From assembly GCF_003054225.1 (NCBI RefSeq), contig NZ_QBKQ01000001.1:1302001-1366000 (forward strand): 64,000 nt of DNA. Direction: 5' to 3'. Numbering within the stretch: position 1 is the stretch's first letter; each line of letters starts with the position of its first letter. Positions 5,358 through 33,012 of the stretch are shown piece by piece. The notes under the pieces are model-generated. The model was not told the origin of the DNA and did not search any database. It saw nothing but the letters and a program-made list of their open reading frames with translations. The position numbers and the translations under genes were made by a program. The stretch comes from Christiangramia gaetbulicola (GTDB lineage Bacteria > Bacteroidota > Bacteroidia > Flavobacteriales > Flavobacteriaceae).

Positions 5358-5780
5358 ATGACGATTCAGGAAAAACAACAGGAGGTAGTTGATGAGTTTG
5401 CAATGTTCGATGACTGGATGCAGCGTTATGAATATATGATAGAGCTGGGTAAGTCATTGCCTTTAATAGAAGATAAATATAAGATCGATGAGAATCTCAT
5501 CAAAGGTTGCCAGAGTAAGGTTTGGGTTCATGCCGAACTGGAAGGCGATAAACTTGCTTTTACGGCAGATAGTGATGCTATCATTACCAAAGGTATCGTA
5601 GCGATCCTTATCAGGGTATTTTCAGATCAGCATCCTTCTCAGATCATAGAGGCCGATACTAAATTCATAGACGAAATAGGATTGAAGGAACATCTTTCTC
5701 CAACTCGCGCCAATGGATTGGTAAGTATGATCAAACAATTAAAAATGTATGCGGTAGCATATCAAACACAATTGAATTAA
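5358..5780 (+). CDS. sufE: SufE, sulfur acceptor for SufS
   Basis: SufE accepts persulfide sulfur from SufS and raises its activity. The protein is 140 residues with the acceptor cysteine at C51 in the conserved context LIKGCQSKVW. It is separated from sufS by three unrelated genes and has its own promoter-like element, so it may be expressed independently of sufBCDS. The next gene starts one base after its stop, and a DUF59 protein there continues the Fe-S theme. Confidence 0.95.
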   Translation: MTIQEKQQEVVDEFAMFDDWMQRYEYMIELGKSLPLIEDKYKIDENLIKGCQSKVWVHAELEGDKLAFTADSDAIITKGIVAILIRVFSDQHPSQIIEADTKFIDEIGLKEHLSPTRANGLVSMIKQLKMYAVAYQTQLN

Positions 5781-14723: not shown

Positions 14724-15422
14724 ATGATCGGAATTATAATTTGCATTCTTGCTACCTGGCTACTCATTAAGATCACAAACACGAAACCCTCGGTTCTTGG
14801 ATTTAAACCTAATATTAAAAGACTTAGGCAATTTGGATTAGGTTTTGGTTTCTCATGTATTGCGGCCCTTATTTATTATTGGTTAACGGTATGGATGTTA
14901 GATGCCCGCCTGGAAGTGAATGCCAATTATAGCATAATAGATTTCCTTGAGGCCTCTTTTTGGACCTTTAGATCGGTTCTTTTCGAGGAATTGATCTGGA
15001 GAGGAATTTTACTGTATTTACTTATTAAATATGTTGGGGTTCGAAATGGGATTATACTTTCGGCCATCACTTTTGGTATTTTTCATTGGTTCAGTTACGA
15101 GATTCTCGGTAATCTTTCGCAAATGCTGGCAGTTTTCCTACTTACAGGAATCGCAGGTATCATGTTTGGTTATGCATATGCTTTAACGGGATCCCTATAC
15201 CTTCCGGTTAGCCTGCATTTTGGTTGGAACTTTGTTTCGATCGTGATCTTCTCACAAGGCCCTATTGGGAATCAATTATTAACGGTTTCTACTTCGAACC
15301 AAATTGAAGGTATAAGTTCACTCGTATTTTTTCTTGTGCAATTATTCATATTACCAATAATCATGTTGGTATACTTTTATTTTTTGAGAAAGAAGCAGGG
15401 GAAATATCCTGTATTAGAATGA
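14724..15422 (+). CDS. CPBP family intramembrane metalloprotease
   Basis: This 232-residue membrane protein has the CPBP (Abi/CAAX-protease-like) motifs: EELIWRG (motif 1, EExxxR), FGIFHW (motif 2, FxxxH), and HFGWN (motif 4, HxxxN). It has six to eight hydrophobic segments. I start at the ATG at 14724 rather than the TTG three bases before. The substrate is unknown; family members cleave prenylated peptides or immunity/anti-sigma proteins. It is divergently placed from the XRE membrane protein, with 212 bases between, so a regulatory link is possible but not shown. Confidence 0.9.
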   Translation: MIGIIICILATWLLIKITNTKPSVLGFKPNIKRLRQFGLGFGFSCIAALIYYWLTVWMLDARLEVNANYSIIDFLEASFWTFRSVLFEELIWRGILLYLLIKYVGVRNGIILSAITFGIFHWFSYEILGNLSQMLAVFLLTGIAGIMFGYAYALTGSLYLPVSLHFGWNFVSIVIFSQGPIGNQLLTVSTSNQIEGISSLVFFLVQLFILPIIMLVYFYFLRKKQGKYPVLE

Positions 15423-15423
15423 G

Positions 15424-15852
15424 TTAATTTTTATTCCTGCGCATTTCAGCCTGTCGCATAGGCATGGAATCTATGAGACCGAATAGCTTTTTAGTCGTTA
15501 GTATTTGGTTCTGCCTTAATTTGACTCCGCCATCGAGCCCGATGAGGATCACTTCGAAGCTCTCTTCAGAGCCTTTTCTGTTTTGATAAAGGTTTGAGTC
15601 CTGCCATCTGGTTTCTTTGGGAAGAATAGTTCTCTGTTTTTGAGGCAGGGAGTGGATAATTAAAAGTTTCCTGTCCTTTAAGCCAGTGATATCGCTTTCA
15701 AGTTCCTCAAATTGTTCCTGAAATTCTTTGGAATCTTCGGCTTCAGTAAAAATGACTATAAGCCTGTTTTCCCATTGATATTCAGAAAGAGATTGTGCAG
15801 ACATAGATGGAATTGCTAAAAATAGAAGAATAAGAATTAGAACTTTTTTCAT
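15424..15852 (-). CDS. DUF4174 secreted protein
   Basis: This 142-residue protein has a signal peptide ending MSAQ and a body with YQWENRLIVIFTEAED and VILIGLDGGVKLR, matching DUF4174, a thioredoxin-like fold without the CxxC pair. Function unknown. It ends two bases beyond the convergent CPBP gene. Confidence 0.8.
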   Translation of the reverse strand: MKKVLILILLFLAIPSMSAQSLSEYQWENRLIVIFTEAEDSKEFQEQFEELESDITGLKDRKLLIIHSLPQKQRTILPKETRWQDSNLYQNRKGSEESFEVILIGLDGGVKLRQNQILTTKKLFGLIDSMPMRQAEMRRNKN

Positions 15853-22785: not shown

Positions 22786-22943
22786 AATGAATTAATGATT
22801 AAAATTGATTAATTGGTAAGTAGGGCTCCTAAATATAGAAATTAAAATATTATCATTCAGCCGGTTGAATTGAAATTACGCGTTTTTGAAGCGAACAAGC
22901 CGGCAAAATTGATAATTCTGCCACGGTTTAGTGTGTAGAAAAT

Positions 22944-23846
22944 CTAAAAATAGATCTGCTGGGCGAGTCTATAGGTATTGGCGTGTGCATCGATGATGAG
23001 TTTGATGTCTTTGGAATATCCGCCGCCCATACTACATTCCACCGGAATTCCCAGGTCATGGCAGGTTTGCAGCACATAGCGGTCTCTTTCCTTACATCCT
23101 GAAATTGAGCAGGAAAGTCTCCCCAGTTTATCAGTTTCGAGAATATCTACGCCACAGAGATAAAAAATAAACTCCGGCTCGGTTCTTTCGATAAGATCGG
23201 GTAGGGTAGACTTCAACTTTTTGAGATACTCTGCATCACCAGTGCCGTCTGCCAGTTCAATGTCCAAGTCAGATTTCTCTTTTCTAAAGGGATAGTTTCC
23301 TTTCCCGTGCATTGAAAAAGTAAAAACCGAATCATCATTCTGAAAGATCTCTGCGGTGCCATTTCCCTGGTGCACATCAAGATCTACGATCAGTATCTTT
23401 TTTGCGAGGCCTTTTGCCTGAAGATATCTCGCTCCTATAGCCTGATCGTTTAGCAAACAGAAAGCCTCAGCGCGGTTGGTATAGGCATGATGTGTACCGC
23501 CGGCGATATTCATGGAAATTCCATTTTCCAAAGCAAAATGACAGGCTTTTAGAGTGCCATCGGCAATGATCTGCTCGCGATCTACCAATTCCTGCGATAA
23601 AGGAAACCCGGAAACGCGAATCTCCTTTTTGGTTAATTCAAGATTCTTTAATCGTTTTACATATTCTGCCGCGTGAACTTTTAGGATATGAGATTCCTCC
23701 GCAAAGTCCGGCTCAAAGAAATTATCCTCCTCACAAGTCCCTTCATGCAAAAGCTGTTTTGGCAGCAGGTCATACTTCTCCATAGGGAAGCGATGTCCTT
23801 CTGGTAACGGATGTTTATAGATATGATGATTGGCTATTTTAAGCAT
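22944..23846 (-). CDS. Histone deacetylase-family hydrolase
   Basis: This 300-residue protein belongs to the HDAC/acetylpolyamine amidohydrolase superfamily. Visible motifs are GGTHHAY (catalytic His pair), NDQAIGARYL, DLDVHQGNGT (zinc ligands D and H), FSMHGKGNYPF, and CGVDILETDKLGR (last zinc Asp). Bacterial members deacetylate small molecules or proteins; the substrate is not evident. A TACATTTG box ends 5 bases before the ATG. Confidence 0.92.
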   Translation of the reverse strand: MLKIANHHIYKHPLPEGHRFPMEKYDLLPKQLLHEGTCEEDNFFEPDFAEESHILKVHAAEYVKRLKNLELTKKEIRVSGFPLSQELVDREQIIADGTLKACHFALENGISMNIAGGTHHAYTNRAEAFCLLNDQAIGARYLQAKGLAKKILIVDLDVHQGNGTAEIFQNDDSVFTFSMHGKGNYPFRKEKSDLDIELADGTGDAEYLKKLKSTLPDLIERTEPEFIFYLCGVDILETDKLGRLSCSISGCKERDRYVLQTCHDLGIPVECSMGGGYSKDIKLIIDAHANTYRLAQQIYF

Positions 23847-23850
23847 TAGC

Positions 23851-23858
23851 CAAATGTA
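23851..23858 (-). promoter_or_regulatory. -7 box for the HDAC-family gene
   Basis: On the minus strand TACATTTG matches TAnnTTTG and ends only 4 bases before the start codon, implying a very short or no leader. The -33 element is unclear. Confidence 0.45.
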
Positions 23859-23867
23859 ACAAACCTG

Positions 23868-24134
23868 CTAATTAACTGAAATAGATTTCACATCATAGAT
23901 CAGATCACCACCTGCGGTAAACCCTTCGATAATTAATTTGAAATCGACCTCGGGCCTGGCAAATTCGATAGCAATATTTTCTCCTTTTCTCGCGATGAGA
24001 TCGCTTTTCCAGTCGATGACGCCATATTGTTGAAAGAATTCGTCATTGGTATTTGTATATTTTGGAACGTAAAATTCTTTTTTCACGGCATAAGAAACCG
24101 GGAATTCAAATTTTTGAAGCCTGTTCCTGGTAGG
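23868..24134 (-). pseudogene. C-terminal stub of an MG2/plug-like paralog
   Basis: The last ~88 codons of the 24785 and 27452 proteins are repeated here: RNRLQKFEFPVSYAVKK, then FYVPKYTNTNDEFF, GVIDWKSDL, and GGDLIYDVKSISVN to the stop. All upstream parts (signal peptide, MG2-like part, plug) are absent. A GTG at 24086 would give a 72-aa product, but there is no promoter or signal peptide. The homology begins two codons after the stop of the 203-aa lipoprotein gene and is in the same frame as that gene. I read it as the surviving end of a third tandem copy. Its middle part is closest to the 27452 copy, its last ~20 codons to the 24785 copy. Confidence 0.82.
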
Positions 24135-24746
24135 TTAATTTTCTGTTTCGAATGAATTTGTATACTGGCTAAAAGCTAGATCTTTTATTTGACCATCACT
24201 TTTTCTAAGTTTTACATTACATATTTCGTTGTTTGTGCTATTTCTGAAAAAAAAGAAATATTCGTTATTCTCTAAGGGTTGAACAGATTTCTCCCCACAA
24301 TTCCATTCCATTTCAATTTCAGAATATTCTTTAAAAGGTACCTGACCTACAAAAACCGTGAAACAGTAATCCTCTTCCTCAGGAAAATTATCCGTCTTTT
24401 TCTCATTGAGTAAAATAAAACAATGGTTCTTATGAAACATTGATTTGGAACCATTTCCATTTAATTTCGCATAACTTATAAGATTGCTGTTTCCTTCCAG
24501 AAATCCGTAATAATGATCTTGATTTAACTTGTATATAAGCCCGGTATAGCTAGAATCAATCTTTTTACTTAAAACCAAGTCAATATCCTTTATTTCATTT
24601 GGACTTGTTTTCTGTGAATGAAATCTATAAAGAATGGCTTCATATTTTTCATCGGTGTATTGACCTTTCTCATTACAACCCATGAAAGCCATAAAAATTA
24701 ATATTATAATTCCCCGGAATAGGCTATTACTGTTTCTGAAATTCAT
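24135..24746 (-). CDS. Lipoprotein of unknown function inside the MG2/plug cluster
   Basis: This 203-residue protein has a signal peptide and lipobox AFMGC (Cys24). The mature part has several cysteines (HCF, DYCF, WNCG, EICN) and ends NSFETEN. I recognise no family. It lies between an intact MG2/plug gene and the stub of another, so it either came in with a rearrangement or replaced the front of that copy. The stub follows its TAA in frame, so stop read-through would add an ~88-residue tail, though nothing shows that this happens. Confidence 0.7.
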   Translation of the reverse strand: MNFRNSNSLFRGIIILIFMAFMGCNEKGQYTDEKYEAILYRFHSQKTSPNEIKDIDLVLSKKIDSSYTGLIYKLNQDHYYGFLEGNSNLISYAKLNGNGSKSMFHKNHCFILLNEKKTDNFPEEEDYCFTVFVGQVPFKEYSEIEMEWNCGEKSVQPLENNEYFFFFRNSTNNEICNVKLRKSDGQIKDLAFSQYTNSFETEN

Positions 24747-24784
24747 AAAGTAATTTTTAGTTGGTTTTTTGAAATATTTAGATG

Positions 24785-27238
24785 TTAATTAACTGAAATA
24801 GATTTCACATCATAGATCAGATCACCACTTGCGGTAAACCCTTCAATAATTAATTTGAAATCAACCTCTGGTTTGGCAAATTCAATAGCGATATTTTCTC
24901 CCTTCCCGGCCATAAGATCACTTTTCCAGTCGATGACGCCATACTCTTGAAAAAATGTGTCTTTTTTATTGGAGTACTGAGGCACATAAAATTTCTTTTT
25001 TGAGGCATATGCTACAGGAAATTCAAACTCCTGTAATCGGTTGCGGTAGTTCCTATTGAAACTGACATCAAAATCTGAATAAATTTTGATACTTCCCCTA
25101 GATCCAATAAACCCATTACCCATCCCAGTTCGATTAATTTCAATATAGTCTATATTAGAAAGAGGGTATTGGTATAGCATTCCCTTATTAAAAAGAGGCA
25201 TACCGTCCATGAATATAGCCAGGCCTCGAGATTCTTCAATACCCGAAGTATCTGCGGTACCAGTAAAGGTTTCATCAAATCCTGCATCTGGTGTTCCAGC
25301 AGATTCAGAGGATTGTTGCGATAAGCTTGTTTCTACAACGAATTGGTCTGGAGATTCGCTAACTCGTAAACCTTGAGCAATTAAATAACCTGCAAGAGTA
25401 TTAAACATCATCTTTTCCTCGTCATCCAGAACGTCAACTTTTCCCCAGGCGTGATTACTCAATTTCCTTTCCCGTGCAATTATTTTATCTATTTTGGTCT
25501 CGATCAATACTTCATCCAGTTGTTCTAAACCTTTAGCAAAGTCATTGAAATAAGAAAAGCCGGGATCTAATTTTTCAGAAAATAAATGTGATTTCTGCAC
25601 CAATCCCTTTGCATCATGCTTTAATTCCTCAATATGGTTTGGATAGAATTGAACCGCAATGCCAGCAGGTGCTAGCGCATCCTTTCTTCTGACTTTAGAA
25701 ATAAAAAGCTTCTCTTCTTCCATTGGGATCACTTCTTCAACCATAAAAGAATCTTTGCCTGCTGGCAGGTCAATGTAGGTAGGAGGATTTGTACTGGAAG
25801 CATGAATCAGGAATCTTCTGTCTTTATCATTATCCCCGTTAGCACGGGCTGTGAGATGTACATATTTTTCGAATTGGTATTTCGGAAATTTATTAACCTT
25901 CATGAAGATCTCTGTCCAGTCATAACTACTCCAGCCCTGTGTGAGGAGTAATAAATCGAGAGCAGTTTTTTTCTCACTATCAATATCCCGAAAATACCAG
26001 CTGGCATCTTCAATAGTTCCATTTACAAAAGGTTGTAACATCATGTATGAAATGATATTATGATTCCTGTGATCTGAAATGGTATTTTCCGGTAAAATAG
26101 ATACACTCAAAAAAGTACTATCGGCGAGTTTTTTAGTAGGTATCGTCAATCGAAGAGAATCGTTTTGATCTACAAATATTGGTTTCTCAAGCTCCTCTAC
26201 TTTTAAGTCATTATAATTGAAAAATAATCGCTCCGCCACCGGTCTCTTGTTCTTGTCGAACAAGGTGATAATATTTATTCCAGAATTTAAATCAGTATAA
26301 GGGACCTCTAAGCTCATGGCTTTTTCATCGTTAAAAGTTACCTGATAGGTAATAGCCTTTCCCGGATTTTGTATGGATAATATAAAAGGATCTTTTCCGA
26401 AATTCTCTATAGTTTCTGAATTGGTTTTTAAGACTATCTCTACAGCATTTTCTTTATTCACAGTAGCTATTAGAATGCCCTGGTCTTCGATCTCAGTGTC
26501 AATAATTTCAGTGAAATTCCGGCCTTTGTAATTTATTAGTGCAACATATTCTTCCTCTATTTTTGGGGTAAAAGAGATACTGCCAATACCAAACCGATTC
26601 AATTTCGTTTCTCCTATAATGCGATTTTTTTTATCCTTTATTTGAACACTGGCATCAGATAAACCGTAGCCTAGACTATCTTTTATTGCAATTCCCAGGT
26701 TATTTACTGTATTCTTTAATAAATGTCCGCTTTCAGATAAGAATTGTGCATCAATTTTATGCAGATTATCAATCTTCTTCTCTTCAAAACCTAAATTGCT
26801 TTCAATAACTTGAATCTTTTCAGTGAAAAAATATTGCTGCTTGAAATTACGCATCCAATTGGTAAAAGCGACGATGGAGTAAGTTCCATTGGTAAAGGTA
26901 GAGTCTATATCGAAAGTATCTGCACCAGTACCCCGATCTATCAAAAGCATTTTTTCCTTTATCACAACATCGTTAGAGTCTTTAACCTGTACATACAAAT
27001 TGGTAGTTTCCAGCGAAGGCTTAAAATCTTTTTGAAGCATCACATAAGCCGATATTCCCAGCTGTTCACCTTGCAAAAGAATTGATTTGTTAAGATGCAG
27101 ATAAGCAATTTCCTTTGGGGTGGAATGGTAATCCAAAAGTTTATTTAATACCTCCCTTTGATAATTCTGGCCTGCAGCATTTTGAAAGTTGAAAATTAAA
27201 AACAATAGGAGTAAAGCAGGGGAGTATTTACGAATCAT
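24785..27238 (-). CDS. Large secreted MG2/TonB-plug-like protein, copy B
   Basis: This 817-residue protein has a signal peptide (to about residue 23, AAGQ). The first part contains YLHLNKSILLQGEQLGISAYV and FTNWMRNF, resembling the macroglobulin MG2-like modules of Bacteroidetes envelope proteins. The centre has several beta-sandwich-like parts. Near residue 710 comes IDYIEINRTGMGNGFIGSRG followed by IKIYSDF, which resembles the plug of SusC/TonB receptors (IExIEVLKG...GSRGANGVI), but no 22-strand barrel follows. It likely works at the outer membrane. It is a tandem paralog of the gene at 27452, from which it is separated by a metG scar. Confidence 0.85.
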   Translation of the reverse strand: MIRKYSPALLLLFLIFNFQNAAGQNYQREVLNKLLDYHSTPKEIAYLHLNKSILLQGEQLGISAYVMLQKDFKPSLETTNLYVQVKDSNDVVIKEKMLLIDRGTGADTFDIDSTFTNGTYSIVAFTNWMRNFKQQYFFTEKIQVIESNLGFEEKKIDNLHKIDAQFLSESGHLLKNTVNNLGIAIKDSLGYGLSDASVQIKDKKNRIIGETKLNRFGIGSISFTPKIEEEYVALINYKGRNFTEIIDTEIEDQGILIATVNKENAVEIVLKTNSETIENFGKDPFILSIQNPGKAITYQVTFNDEKAMSLEVPYTDLNSGINIITLFDKNKRPVAERLFFNYNDLKVEELEKPIFVDQNDSLRLTIPTKKLADSTFLSVSILPENTISDHRNHNIISYMMLQPFVNGTIEDASWYFRDIDSEKKTALDLLLLTQGWSSYDWTEIFMKVNKFPKYQFEKYVHLTARANGDNDKDRRFLIHASSTNPPTYIDLPAGKDSFMVEEVIPMEEEKLFISKVRRKDALAPAGIAVQFYPNHIEELKHDAKGLVQKSHLFSEKLDPGFSYFNDFAKGLEQLDEVLIETKIDKIIARERKLSNHAWGKVDVLDDEEKMMFNTLAGYLIAQGLRVSESPDQFVVETSLSQQSSESAGTPDAGFDETFTGTADTSGIEESRGLAIFMDGMPLFNKGMLYQYPLSNIDYIEINRTGMGNGFIGSRGSIKIYSDFDVSFNRNYRNRLQEFEFPVAYASKKKFYVPQYSNKKDTFFQEYGVIDWKSDLMAGKGENIAIEFAKPEVDFKLIIEGFTASGDLIYDVKSISVN

Positions 27239-27300
27239 AAAGTCGTTTTTAATAATGGTAAAATATGAAAATATCAGTATAATTAACGGTTACTTATAAA

Positions 27301-27343
27301 AAAACCTCCGAAGTTTCTATCTTATTAAAGTTTCGGAGGTTTT
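27301..27343. terminator. Hairpin between the two MG2/plug genes
   Basis: AAAACCTCCGAA pairs with TTCGGAGGTTTT over 12 bp around a 19-base loop. On the minus strand a long T run follows, so it can end transcription from the 27452 gene before copy B. Confidence 0.8.
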
Positions 27344-27360
27344 ATAATATATATTGAAAT

Positions 27361-27424
27361 TAATTTATTGTAGTTCCGAGCTTTACTCCATCTTCATCCG
27401 AATCTACAAAAACCAGTTTTCCTT
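27361..27424 (-). pseudogene. Scar: duplicated C-terminal end of metG
   Basis: On the minus strand this reads GKLVFVDSDEDGVKLGTTIN and a stop. That is the last 20 codons of the real metG ([20 protein letters not shown]) at 30231-30295 with three substitutions. Similarity ends at about 27424. It has no start or upstream part, so it is non-functional. It lies upstream of copy B just as the real metG lies upstream of the 27452 copy, so it marks one end of a tandem duplication. Confidence 0.9.
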
Positions 27425-27451
27425 AAGCCTTAACCTAAAGTAATAATCCTG

Positions 27452-29863
27452 CTAATTAATTGAAATAGATCTCACCTCATTGATGAGATCACCACCTGCG
27501 GTAAAACCTTCAATAATTAATTTGAAATCGACCTTTGGTTTGGCAAATTCGATAGCAATATTTTCTCCGATACCGGCGATGAGATCGCTTTTCCAATCGA
27601 TGACTCCGTATTGCTGAAAGAATTCGTCATTAGTATTTGTATATTTTGGAACGTAAAATTCTTTTTGTACAGCATAAGCAACCGGAAATTCAAATTTCTG
27701 GATTCTGTTCTTCGTAGAAACTTTGTCTGGACTAAGATCAAAATCTGAATGGATTTTAATTGTTCCGGCACTACCCATGAAACCTTCTCCCATCCCAGAC
27801 TTATTTATTTCGATGTAATCTATTGTAGATAAAGGATAACGATAAAACATGGTAGTATCAAAAATGGGGACACCGTCCAGATAAATAGTTACTGGGGAAC
27901 CTGTTCCGGAAAATCCATCACCGCCGCCACCTATGGCTAAACTGCTTACTACTTTAAACGCCAGAGGGGATTCTGTGACTCTAAATCCTTGCGAAATTAG
28001 ATAGTTACCTAGAAATTGGAACATGTTTTTATCTTCCTCACTCAGGACATCTACTTTACTATGGGCAGATTTGCTTAGACTTCGTTCCCGGACCAGGATT
28101 GGGTCTACTTTGGTTTCTAGTAAAACTTCTTCCAGCTGTTCGATTCCTTTTCCAAAATCGTTAAATTGAAAAAATACAGGATCTGGTTTTACAGAATATA
28201 AATGTGACCATGGGGCAAGACTTTCACCTGAATGTTTAAAATCCTCAATATGATTGGGAAAGAATTGCACGGAAAGACCGGCCGGAGTGAGCTTGTCATT
28301 GTTTTTTACCCTGGAAATAAAAAGATTCTCTCCTTCCAGGGGCTTAATACCTTCAAAGATAAAGGCATCCTTACCTTCAGGTACCTCTACAAAAGTAGGG
28401 GCATTCGTAGAGGAGGCATGAATCAAAAATCTTTGCTCTTTATCCCGGTTATTATTTATGTTCGCCTTTAGATCTATATAATTCTCGAATCCATAATTCA
28501 GTTCCCTGGATCCTTCAAAAATGTTTCTCCAGTTATAACTGCTCCATCCCTGGGTTAATAATAAATTATCCAGAGCTTCTTTTTTAGTCCCATCAATATC
28601 TTTAAAATACCAGGAAGCATTTTCGACTGTTCCTTTTAAGTGTGGTTGTAGCATCAGGTAAGAAATGATATTGTGGTTTCGCTTATCTGAAATGGTTTTT
28701 TCCGGTAAAATGGAAACACTTAAGAAGGTACTGTCAGCGATCTTACCTGTGGGTAGACTTAATTGAATGGAATCTTTTCTATCCTGAACAATCGGTTTAT
28801 CCAGTTCTACGATGGGTAGGTTTTTATGATTGAAGATCAATCTTTCGGCTAAAGGCTTTTTATCACTATTAAATAGGGTAATGATATTGATACCTGAATT
28901 TAATTCCTTGTATGGAACAGGAACTAACACCGATGTAGCGTTATTAAAGTCAATTTGGTAAGCAATTACCTTATTAGGATTCTGAATTGTTAAAATAAAA
29001 GGAGTGCCTTCAATAGATTTCTGTGTCTCCAGGTTTGTATTTAAAGTTACCTGCAATTCATTTTCCTGATTATTGGTGTTAATGGTCACTCCGCGCCTTT
29101 CTATCTTTGTGGAAATTTTTTGAGAAAACTCCCGGCCTTTAAAATTGATAAGTGCCGTGTATTGCTCTGAAACATCAGGGATTAAAGAAACCTTCCCAAT
29201 TCCTAATTGATTAAGCCTGGTGTAAGCCACCATTTTATTGTCCTGATTCAAAATTCTAACATTGGCTTTGGAAAGTCCGTAACCCAGGCTATCCTTGATA
29301 ATAATGCCTAGATTATTAACCACATTATTCAATAAATGACCACTTTCAGGCAGAAATTGCGCATCTAATTTTTGAAGCTTATCGACCTTTTTTTCTTTAT
29401 AATCAGAGTCAGATTCCAGGATCTGAATTTTTTCTGTAAAGAAATTTTGCTGGTCAAAATTGCGCATCCAATTCGTAAAGGCGGTGATCGAGTAAGTTCC
29501 TTTGGAAAAGGTGGAATCGATATCGAAGGTGTTGGAAGCAGTACCATTCTCTACTAGCAACATTTTTTCCTTAACCACTTTATCATTCGAATCCTTGACC
29601 TGTACATATAAGTTAGTCGTTTTCAAGGAAGGTTTGAGGTCCTGCTGATTGATGATATAAGCTGAAAATCCCAACTGTTCCCCCTGTAATAATATGGATT
29701 TGTTTAAATGTAGGTAGGCAGTTTCTTTTGGTGTAGATTGAAATTCGATGAGCTTTTCCTGAATTTCCTTAGAAGTATCCTGTGCGTTGATTGATTGGTG
29801 AAATGAGAGCCTGAAAATAAATAGAATTAACAGTAAGGGTTTTGCGAGTAGTAGTTTTTTCAA
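27452..29863 (-). CDS. Large secreted MG2/TonB-plug-like protein, copy C
   Basis: This ~803-residue protein is the paralog of the 24785 gene. It has the same layout: signal peptide ending NAQ, YLHLNKSILLQGEQLGFSAYI near the front, and IDYIEINKSGMGEGFMGSAG near residue 700, then a C-terminal domain identical in type (DWKSDLIAG, FKLIIEGFTAGGDL). An open frame continues to about 29917, but I place the start at the TTG at 29863 (LKKLLLAKP), which gives a normal signal peptide. No ATG is available nearby, so the start is uncertain. It is the first copy after metG and ends with CTA/TAG rather than TAA. Confidence 0.85.
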   Translation of the reverse strand: MKKLLLAKPLLLILFIFRLSFHQSINAQDTSKEIQEKLIEFQSTPKETAYLHLNKSILLQGEQLGFSAYIINQQDLKPSLKTTNLYVQVKDSNDKVVKEKMLLVENGTASNTFDIDSTFSKGTYSITAFTNWMRNFDQQNFFTEKIQILESDSDYKEKKVDKLQKLDAQFLPESGHLLNNVVNNLGIIIKDSLGYGLSKANVRILNQDNKMVAYTRLNQLGIGKVSLIPDVSEQYTALINFKGREFSQKISTKIERRGVTINTNNQENELQVTLNTNLETQKSIEGTPFILTIQNPNKVIAYQIDFNNATSVLVPVPYKELNSGINIITLFNSDKKPLAERLIFNHKNLPIVELDKPIVQDRKDSIQLSLPTGKIADSTFLSVSILPEKTISDKRNHNIISYLMLQPHLKGTVENASWYFKDIDGTKKEALDNLLLTQGWSSYNWRNIFEGSRELNYGFENYIDLKANINNNRDKEQRFLIHASSTNAPTFVEVPEGKDAFIFEGIKPLEGENLFISRVKNNDKLTPAGLSVQFFPNHIEDFKHSGESLAPWSHLYSVKPDPVFFQFNDFGKGIEQLEEVLLETKVDPILVRERSLSKSAHSKVDVLSEEDKNMFQFLGNYLISQGFRVTESPLAFKVVSSLAIGGGGDGFSGTGSPVTIYLDGVPIFDTTMFYRYPLSTIDYIEINKSGMGEGFMGSAGTIKIHSDFDLSPDKVSTKNRIQKFEFPVAYAVQKEFYVPKYTNTNDEFFQQYGVIDWKSDLIAGIGENIAIEFAKPKVDFKLIIEGFTAGGDLINEVRSISIN

Positions 29864-29917
29864 AATGATTGGTTTTGGCTGTGTTAGGTTTTTCGATAAA
29901 CACAAATAACCTGCCAA

Positions 29918-30230
29918 AATTAACGGTTGCCCCTAAAAAATAAGATTGATTGTTATTTTCTAATGGCAGAAATCTTTTAATATTTATGTTCTATTAATTG
30001 ATTTTCAGTTGTTTGTATTTAATTATTTCTAACTGATTTAATCTCAATAATTTTAATAAAAATGGTTTTTCAGATGCATCGATTTCATAAAGAAATGATG
30101 AATTGATAGTTGAGCAATTATTTAAAAATGAAAAAACCTGTCCTTTTGAGCAAAGTCAAAAAAGACAGGTTTTATCCTAAATATTTAGTGTTTGATCACA
30201 TTTCAAATAGGCTCAATGTGACGGGAAGAT
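29918..30230. promoter_or_regulatory. Spacer between metG and the MG2/plug copy C
   Basis: This AT-rich gap of about 310 bases carries the metG terminator. Near its left end it has AACCGTTAATT on the minus strand, a word also found upstream of copy B at 27282-27292. The shared word supports duplication of the upstream region with the gene. No gene is seen. Confidence 0.5.
30133..30173 (-). terminator. Terminator of metG
   Basis: AAAACCTGTC pairs with GACAGGTTTT around a 21-base loop, with an A run on the left that becomes a T run on the minus strand. Confidence 0.75.
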
Positions 30231-32306
30231 CTAATTTATCGTAGTTCCGCTTTTTACGCCGTCTTCATCCGGATTCACAAATACCAGTTTTCCTTCCGCG
30301 TTTTCGGTCATTAAGATCATTCCCTCACTTTCTACTCCGCGTAATTTTCTTGGAGCAAGGTTTACCAGTACGGTCACTTTTTTGCCAATGATATCTTCAG
30401 CTTTAAAATGCTCGGCTATCCCTGAAACAACAGTTCTTTTATCTATTCCGGTATCCACCTTTAAAACCATTAATTTCTTGGTTTTTGGCATTTTTTCAGC
30501 TTCGATGATGGTTCCTACGCGAAGATCCATTTTGGTGAAATCTTCAAAAGTAGCGATCTCTTTCTGAGGTTCTGCTTTTTGATCTTTCATGGCATTTGCA
30601 GTTTTCGTTGCTTCTAATTTTTCCAGTTGTTTCTCCATTTGTTCATCCTCGATCTTGCTGAATAATAATTCGGCTTTTCCAATTTGATGCCCTGCAGGAA
30701 TTAATGCTTCCTTGGTTCCGATAATATCCCAGTCTGGTGTATTATCTGAATTCTCATCTACATGATTCAGCATCTTTTTTAGTTTGGCTGAGGTAAATGG
30801 TAAGAAAGGTTCGCTGATGATAGATAGGGCAGAAGCGATCTGAAGTGCTACATACATAATGGTTTTTACCCTTTCCTCATCGGTCTTGATCAATTTCCAT
30901 GGTTCTTCATCAGCAAGATATTTATTACCAAGCCTGGCCAGGTTCATCAATTCTCCCTGGGCTTCTCTAAACCTGTATCTTTCGATGGAACTTGCGATAA
31001 CCGAAGGATATGCCTTTAGTTCAGCAACGGTCTTTTCATCAACTTCAGAATAGGTTCCCGGTTCTGGAACAATCCCGTTGTAATATTTATTGGTTAGAAC
31101 CACCACCCGGTTAATGAAGTTTCCGAAGATGGCTACCAGTTCATTGTTGTTTCTTGCCTGGAAATCTTTCCAGGTAAAATCATTGTCCTTAGTTTCAGGT
31201 GCGTTTGCAGTTAAAACATATCTAAGCACATCCTGCTGGTCTGGAAAATCTTCCAGATATTCATGAAGCCAAACCGCCCAGTTCTTGGAAGTTGAAAGTT
31301 TCTTTCCTTCAAGGTTCAGGAACTCGTTAGCAGGAACATTTTCCGGAAGTATGAATTCGCCGTGAGCTTTTAACATCACCGGGAAAATGATACAATGGAA
31401 AACGATATTATCCTTCCCAATGAAATGTACCAGTTTGGTGTTTTCGTCTTTCCAGTATGGCTCCCAGTCCTTGCCTTCTCTTTCAGCCCATTCTTTGGTA
31501 GAAGAAATATAACCTATAGGCGCATCGAACCAAACGTAAAGAACTTTACCATCGCCGCCTTCAACAGGAACGGGAATTCCCCAATCCAGGTCACGGGTTA
31601 CCGCACGGGCACGCAGCCCATCGTCTATCCATGATTTCACCTGTCCGTAAACATTCGATTTCCAGTCGGCTTTATGCCCTTTAAGTATCCATTCTTTCAG
31701 GAAATCCTCATATTGATCTAAAGGAAGAAACCAGTGACGGGTTTCCTTTAAAGTTGGAACTGCGCCGGTAATGGCAGATTTTGGATTTATAAGATCTGTT
31801 GCGTTCAGGGAAGTCCCGCAGCTTTCACACTGGTCTCCATAAGCTTCTTCGTTACCACATTTAGGGCAGGTCCCGGTTACAAATCTATCGGCCAGGAATT
31901 GTCCTGCTTCCTCATCATAAAGCTGCTTGGTGGTCTCCTCAATGAATTTACCATCTTCATACATTTTTTTGAAAAATGCCGAAGCGGTATCATGGTGGGT
32001 TTTTCCGGAAGTACGCGAGTAATTGTCAAAGCTTACTCCAAAATCTTCAAAGGATTTTTTAATGATCCCGTTGTATTTATCAACTACATCCTGCGGAGTT
32101 ACCCCTTCTTTTTTTGCTTTTATGGTAATAGGCACTCCATGCTCATCACTACCGCAAACAAAGGCCACATCGTGCCCCTGCATTCGAAGAAAACGGGAAT
32201 AAATATCTGCCGGAACATAAACACCGGCTAAATGTCCAATATGAATAGGCCCGTTGGTATAAGGTAAGGCCGCTGTAATCGTAAATCTCTGAGGATTTTT
32301 GTTCAT
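30231..32306 (-). CDS. metG: Methionine-tRNA ligase
   Basis: This 691-residue enzyme charges tRNA-Met. It has HIGH at residues 22-25 (GPIHIGH), a zinc knuckle CPKCG...CESCG near 145-162, and a KMSKS variant KKLSTSK near 335. The anticodon-binding domain is followed by a C-terminal EMAP-like tRNA-binding domain ([15 protein letters not shown], about residues 590-691), which makes it a dimeric bacterial type. The open frame extends 30 codons upstream, but ATG at 32306 gives the normal N-terminus ([19 protein letters not shown]). Its last 20 codons have been duplicated at 27361. Confidence 0.97.
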
Positions 32307-32430
32307 TATTCTATGTCCTTTTTTAAGAGCCGTAAAGTTAAGCAAAGACGTTCGATTACGCGTTAAATTCTTGCAAAAGGCAAATGAGCTCATCAATAAC
32401 TTTCTACTTTTACCTTAAATAAAAATTGAA

Positions 32431-33012
32431 ATGCGTAAAATAATCCTGATCGTTGCCGTGATATTTATGGCTGCCTGTAATTCTGCAAAAAAAGGAACTT
32501 CTGCTGGTACGGCAAAGTATACCGTGGAAAATCTTGGTAAGATGAGTGCTGCCGATATTCAGAAGAATTATCCCGATGCAAATATCGAACAGGGAACAGA
32601 TATGTTTGAAGAAGGAACAGACGAGCGACCTTTCACTATTCTTTATCCGGGAACTGAAAATGAATTACATATCACCTGGCAGGATAAGAACAGGACTGAA
32701 ATTCATGACCTTCGATTTTCGAATAAGGGAAAATGGAATTCTGAAACCGGAGTAGTTATTGGAACTACCTATGAGGAACTGAACAAAATGAACGGGAAAA
32801 AAGTTTCATTTTATGGTTTTGGCTGGGATTACAGCGGTGCTGTAGACTGGAATGGAGGTAAACTTGAAAAAAGCGGGTTAAGGGTTTTCCTGACTCCTAC
32901 AAAAGAACCTTCTAATAAATTTTACGGAGATAAGATCATTGAAGCTACACCCGAAGAGATCGAAGAACTCGATCTAAAAGTAGGCTCGATAATGATCAAT
33001 TACGCGATCTAG
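32431..33012 (+). CDS. Lipoprotein of unknown function
   Basis: This 193-residue lipoprotein has the lipobox MAAC (Cys16). The mature part contains EGTDERPFTILYPGTENELHI and GVVIGTTYEELNKMNGKKVSFYGFGWDY, resembling small periplasmic proteins that describe a substrate-binding or inhibitor-like fold, but I assign no family. It is divergent from metG (124 bases) and is 12 bases from the YraN gene, so the two are probably cotranscribed. Confidence 0.75.
   Translation: MRKIILIVAVIFMAACNSAKKGTSAGTAKYTVENLGKMSAADIQKNYPDANIEQGTDMFEEGTDERPFTILYPGTENELHITWQDKNRTEIHDLRFSNKGKWNSETGVVIGTTYEELNKMNGKKVSFYGFGWDYSGAVDWNGGKLEKSGLRVFLTPTKEPSNKFYGDKIIEATPEEIEELDLKVGSIMINYAI

Follow-up and report, generated by a model that had tools for sequence, protein, structure and literature searches.

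A duplicated metG 3' end between two paralogs of Christiangramia gaetbulicola as the probable scar of a joint between diverged metG-HDAC haplotypes

A short copy of the 3' end of metG lies between two large paralogous genes, B and C, in the 64,000-nt stretch of the C. gaetbulicola genome analysed here (the window). We found that this stub is a genuine rearrangement scar with a left break inside metG, approximately 21 codons before its end. Both break points are visible: the joint connects the start of a deacetylase-like gene (HDAC) to the metG end (HDAC :: metG at 27423/27422). On the minus strand, the gene order is metG, paralog C, metG stub, paralog B, lipoprotein-like gene, tail A and HDAC (Table 1). 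Since there are two types of spacer at the locus, since the metG-B junction exists in two relatives, and since the nearest relative (genome G018) harbours the paralogs in the opposite order, we conclude that the joint probably fused two diverged haplotypes, metG-C-HDAC and metG-B-lipoprotein-HDAC, head to tail. The stub most likely has no function, and metG itself is intact.

Table 1. Features of the metG-HDAC locus in the window, in the order of the minus strand.
Feature	Position	Strand	Evidence and remarks
Intact metG (methionyl-tRNA synthetase)	30231..32396	-	Pfam PF09334, E 4e-161; listed ORF begins with TTG
metG-C spacer	29918..30230	-	First ~105 nt of the metG-downstream type of paralog-free relatives; from 30100 upstream region of C
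Paralog C, 821 aa	27452..29917	-	ORF called mechanically from TTG; MG2 at E 1.3e-5, which does not reach the Pfam cut-off
Other side of the joint	27423..27451	-	Copies the 21-nt gap that follows the paralog stop and the first 8 nt of HDAC
metG stub, last 20 codons and TAA	27360..27422	-	52/63 bases identical to 30231-30293
Stub-B spacer with terminator-like hairpin, metG-B type	27239..27359	-	Spacer alignments with G018 and G010
Paralog B, 817 aa	24785..27238	-	MG2 matched weakly (E 0.0017), short of the Pfam cut-off
203-aa protein with lipoprotein-like start	24135..24746	-	Lipoprotein-like by inspection of the sequence, without a family match; follows B in three species
Tail A, 5'-truncated paralog remnant, ~88 codons	23868..24133	-	Directly after the lipoprotein stop; same remnant in G018
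Deacetylase-like gene (HDAC)	22944..23846	-	PF00850 at E 7e-60; flanks the locus on the right

The translation of the stub on the minus strand is GKLVFVDSDEDGVKLGTTIN, followed by a stop codon. As stated in the preliminary description, it matches the last 20 codons of metG with three changes: 3 of 20 residues, and 11 of 63 bases, differ from the metG end at 30293-30231. The metG ends of G018 and of Christiangramia lutea (genome G010) each differ from the stub at 10/63 bases. When the region 22801-32500 was compared with itself by blastn, 27361-27431 paired with 30232-30302 (82% of 71 nt, E 7e-13), so that the alignment proposed previously is significant, and a separate repeat search recovered the same pair. 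The coordinates given earlier were right within a base or two; the start at 27361 misses the last base, the stub with its TAA corresponding to 27422-27360. A chance match is ruled out, because the second best place for the metG end on both strands of the window reaches 32/63 identical bases, compared to 52/63 in the stub. An assembly error is unlikely, since stub and metG are not identical in sequence and each side of the joint has its own context in relatives.

The homology was said to end abruptly at about 27424. Indeed, the edge of the stub is sharp and the joint can be placed at 27422-27424, where the sequence switches to metG at GGAAAACTGG and two bases (AA) fit both the metG and the HDAC side. 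The HDAC side was recognized by a 295-nt repeat (87%) between 27423-27717 and 23839-24133. This repeat crosses the paralog stop codon, the 21-nt gap and 8 bases of HDAC, and thus ends in the HDAC start, 27451-27423 corresponding to 23867-23839. The copy of the HDAC start at the joint reads AGGCTTAA for ATGCTTAA.

A paralog profile, at a threshold of E 1e-60, gave matches in 67 genomes out of 397 sampled from the family. Among 19 family members, Pfam detected the MG2 domain in 13 and the Plug domain in one. NCBIfam gave no match at E 0.1 for B, C, the lipoprotein or HDAC, PADLOC none at E 0.1 for B, C and the lipoprotein, and a search by sequence for relatives of the paralogs with known structure none at E 0.01. 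A literature search on MG2 and plug domains in Bacteroidetes found nothing, and in the titles and abstract beginnings of the papers listed on Gramella, duplication and transfer there was nothing on the metG-HDAC locus. For the lipoprotein gene, the 397-genome sample contained, in addition to the gene itself, three weak matches (E not better than 3e-4). We retrieved 40 family loci from 36 of the 67 profile-positive genomes, chosen mainly by score, and the metG end was readable in 19 of them. In 10 of the 40 loci a paralog is located between metG and HDAC.

In bacteria, a truncated neighbour gene at the joint is the ordinary remnant of a tandem duplication, and the window has such a truncated gene. 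The stub was originally interpreted in this way, as the footprint of a duplication of a unit consisting of the metG end and a paralog, with B and C as the daughters. The topology of the joint is right for this interpretation, the right end of the unit (HDAC start) being connected to its left end (metG end), and tandem paralogs are common, two or more being present in 10 of the 40 fetched family loci. In addition, the stub-B and metG-C spacers have a similar 23-nt piece near the gene starts (E 0.002). However, if B and C were daughters of one duplication, these two spacers should match, and they do not. The units are not collinear, and apart from the 23-nt piece the best local score between the spacers is 17, a chance level reached by 270 of 500 shuffles (all spacer shuffles were first-order Markov resamples, not exact dinucleotide shuffles). 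Instead, the stub-B spacer aligns with the metG-B spacers of G018 (86%, 120 nt) and C. lutea (84%, 119 nt), and the stub with its terminator resembles the normal metG-B junction of these two genomes. The metG-C spacer, on the other hand, resembles the metG-HDAC spacer of the paralog-free genome G005 (74% over 96 nt, score 47, reached by 0 of 300 shuffles). Furthermore, tail A and the lipoprotein gene are absent from the C unit.

Phylogeny points in the same direction. In the tree of the N-terminal half, the B genes of the window, G018 and C. lutea form one group (100/100) and the C genes of the window and G018 another (80/66), which implies that B and C parted before the split between the window and G018 lineages. 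The B copy of C. lutea says nothing on the age of the B-C split, since B most likely moved between species (see below). Only in the tail are B and C closer to each other within the genome. The tree alone allows an old duplication with later losses, but the spacers speak against that. Thus, a simple tandem duplication is unlikely; it survives only if it is older than the split from G018, if the spacers diverged past recognition and if C was lost or moved elsewhere. Of the original interpretation we retain the rearrangement scar with its left break in metG, but not the simple copying of one unit. The view that B and C arose as copies in this event is disfavoured by the non-homologous spacers, the metG-B-like sequence on the stub side and the N-terminal tree.

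A remote common origin of both spacer types is conceivable in view of the 23-nt piece and of the score of 21 between the metG-B spacer of C. lutea and an empty-site spacer, which 21 of 300 shuffles equalled. The motif AACCGTTAATT is found upstream of both B (27281-27291) and C (29918-29928) in otherwise unrelated spacers and is perhaps a shared part of their promoters.

The comparison with the genus shows in which contexts both paralogs occur. HDAC was detected in 22 of 24 genus genomes; G019 (73% complete) and G020 (67% complete) had no HDAC match and are outside the locus counts. At 19 of the 21 loci besides the window, metG and HDAC are separated by a gap of approximately 10 to 400 nt without a paralog. 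C. lutea has the arrangement metG-B-lipoprotein-HDAC, and G018, the nearest genome according to HDAC identity, metG-B-lipoprotein-tailA-C-HDAC. The lipoprotein-like gene is 88% identical in G018 and 82% in C. lutea; the C counterpart in G018 shows 76%, and the whole stretch 30100-27423 79% identity to G018. In G018, the 25 nt from the tail-A stop onwards are similar to the empty-site spacer of G023; the score of 17 was reached by 0 of 300 shuffles, and the second best spacer scored 11. This suggests that in G018, too, C arrived with a piece of the metG downstream region. Relatives with a one-copy arrangement, for which the preliminary description had proposed to look, do exist: single-copy metG-paralog-HDAC loci were found in C. 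lutea (L032/L057), Muriicola (L066) and Leeuwenhoekiella (L061), in the last of which metG and the paralog are 2.8 kb apart. A stub at loci without paralogs, which was named as a refuting case, was not seen: a second match to the own metG end did not exceed 37/63 bases at the 21 other genus loci and 35/63 at the 19 family loci with a readable metG end. None of the 22 genus loci (window and 21 others) has an intact metG-C-HDAC haplotype with C as the single paralog, and for this reason the metG-C-HDAC donor is one that we infer.

B and C are mosaics with a conserved N-terminal half, a divergent stretch at approximately codons 440-730 and a more conserved tail. At the DNA level, B of the window and B of G018 are 88-96% identical over approximately 440 alignment columns and 49-71% thereafter, and the divergent halves of B and C depart from each gene's own counterpart. 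In the C-terminal tree, C of the window is placed with the B copies found in G018 and C. lutea (91/90), which conflicts with the N-terminal tree. In the last 40 columns B and C of the window genome are 88% alike, and B and C of G018 have a common block of 40 columns with 93% identity. Paralog tails thus appear to recombine within genomes. Tail A of the window also has stretches that are closer to the tails of B and C in the same genome than to tail A of G018.

Synonymous divergence (dS) provides a relative time scale. Between the window and C. lutea, dS of four flanking genes is 1.22-1.96, of B codons 1-440 0.46 and of the lipoprotein gene 0.38; B from codon 441 does not share the low value (1.86). 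Since a dS of about 0.4 stands against 1.2-2.0 in the flanking genes, the first half of B and the lipoprotein gene most likely moved between the two lineages after their split. Between the window and G018, dS is 0.31 for B codons 1-440 (from codon 441 it is saturated), 0.24 for the lipoprotein gene and 0.305 for C codons 1-150, similar to metG (0.285); the gene beyond metG shows 0.19, and comparisons of the M13 peptidase of G018, which paired unlike genes, were left out. Both alleles were thus probably present in the common ancestor of the window and G018. Out of line with metG are C codons 150-600 (0.58-0.89) and HDAC (0.72), where recombination is likely. The HDAC value, far above those of metG and the gene beyond it, hints at recombination at the right flank also. 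In metG itself, window-G018 dS is 0.44 in the last 70 codons and 0.26 in the first 500, and neither these values nor sliding identity revealed a clear imported tract.

The stub can be dated approximately as well. It carries 8 changes of its own in 63 positions, roughly half of the window-G018 dS of metG, which makes it about as old as the split from G018. At two sites the stub agrees with C. lutea against metG of the window and of G018, a hint that it is perhaps older. This age, and the presence of both alleles in the ancestor, also fit a different history, in which an ancestral array metG-C-[joint]-B-lipoprotein-tailA-C'-HDAC existed before the split and the two lineages suffered different losses. 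In the window lineage, C' would have been deleted when its tail recombined with tail A; in G018, recombination of metG with the stub would have removed the first C. Each loss would be one deletion between existing direct repeats (71 nt of metG and stub; 266-nt tails), one ancestor would account for both gene orders, and the boundary between tail A and HDAC in the window is indeed 97% identical (39 columns) to the C-HDAC boundary of G018. Against this, the ancestor would have had two C copies and two joints, an arrangement seen in no genome examined, and making the array would still require the joining of unlike haplotypes, in which it overlaps with the account that we favour. We regard the array as the most serious rival, but as a tentative possibility, on balance rather doubtful. 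The 8 changes of the stub do not decide between it and a single addition of DNA from another haplotype, which is the least costly account.

According to the favoured account, the joining of two haplotypes by a single addition, the stub would be the original metG 3' end of a metG-B-lipoprotein-tailA-HDAC haplotype, displaced 2.9 kb downstream. The DNA inserted between metG and B would have come from another haplotype and would extend from the metG end and its terminator through paralog C to the eighth base of HDAC. On the left side, the incoming DNA may have paired with metG by homology and entered by one crossover; on the right side, HDAC codon 3 would have been connected to metG codon -21 by an illegitimate joint with AA shared. 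Two alleles of a variable surface-type protein would then be kept side by side, and their tails would subsequently exchange sequence. Provided that two haplotypes were joined, we consider that both sides arose in one such event with some reservation, giving it a little less than an even chance. The illegitimate route is disfavoured by the two shared bases at the joint and by the fact that no deletion was seen, although later changes could hide further shared bases. DprA and ComEC families were matched in the host genome, but the same searches match E. coli as well.

The proposed event resembles homology-facilitated illegitimate recombination as outlined in PMC3240628, in which one end is homologous and the other illegitimate and foreign DNA is added beside a homologous gene. 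Joints of that kind are described there as mostly sharing 3-10 bp, generally with a deletion of recipient DNA, whereas in the window there are 2 bp, no deletion is seen, and the event is known as an old scar only. A second known process is merodiploid formation in transformation, for which PMC3784515 reports tandem duplications of about 100 to 900 kb via pairing of repeats. There, as presumably in the window, unequal exchange gives two tandem alleles and a novel joint. The window differs from it by the 2.9-kb step, by a joint without repeat and by the unlike haplotypes.

We also considered site-specific integration of an element at the metG 3' end, in which case the stub would represent the far attachment site. 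Elements of this kind usually lie between two copies of a gene 3' end. However, the window contains no integrase-family gene (the five PF00589 matches in the genome are all elsewhere), and the insert ends inside the HDAC copy. Moreover, two similar cases in other genomes duplicate the HDAC end instead, with unequal lengths of 194 and 157 nt. On the whole, such integration is highly improbable. In the first of these cases (L067, an Allomuricauda MAG, 5577-5768), HDAC and a paralog are followed by a duplicate of the HDAC end, 194 nt long and 88% identical. This HDAC stub ends with EIYF like HDAC of G015, while the intact HDAC of L067 ends with GIWF. In the second case (L046 in G015, oriented positions 15412-15568), the HDAC 3' end is repeated over 157 nt with 96% identity at a distance of 1.4 kb past HDAC, behind a reverse-strand gene with aspartate-rich, presumably thrombospondin-3-like repeats. 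Both cases show a scar of the type seen in the window and thereby lend some support to the joining of haplotypes.

Scars of this type are not a common feature. When 53 further loci, three of them representing the same locus twice, were scanned for direct repeats of at least 50 nt, a repeated metG or HDAC end was found in L067 only, and we therefore regard such scars as rare. Likewise, among the 21 other genus loci only G015 has one (HDAC end). Repeats of other sequences were found in L058, L124, L126, L142 and L160, and between paralogs in L064, L065, L154 and L161.

In summary, the stub is genuine, clearly delimited and informative, yet it documents a known kind of event; the more interesting part is the locus as a slot for exchangeable alleles. 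It is tempting to speculate, with somewhat less confidence than the opposite would deserve, that the gap between metG and HDAC is an old, family-wide slot occupied by a variable surface protein of the MG2/plug-like type. In this view, the alleles would travel as cassettes from one species to another, illegitimate joints would stack them in one order or the other, and their C-terminal halves would then be shuffled; the stubs of metG, HDAC and paralogs would be the scars left behind. The stub alone is a relic. However, a joint with both breaks preserved and with relatives that allow its dating shows how bacteria can stack two fast-changing surface alleles with no mobile element in sight, and the surrounding locus could be used to test whether the diversity of flavobacterial surface genes comes from the uptake of neighbours' DNA.
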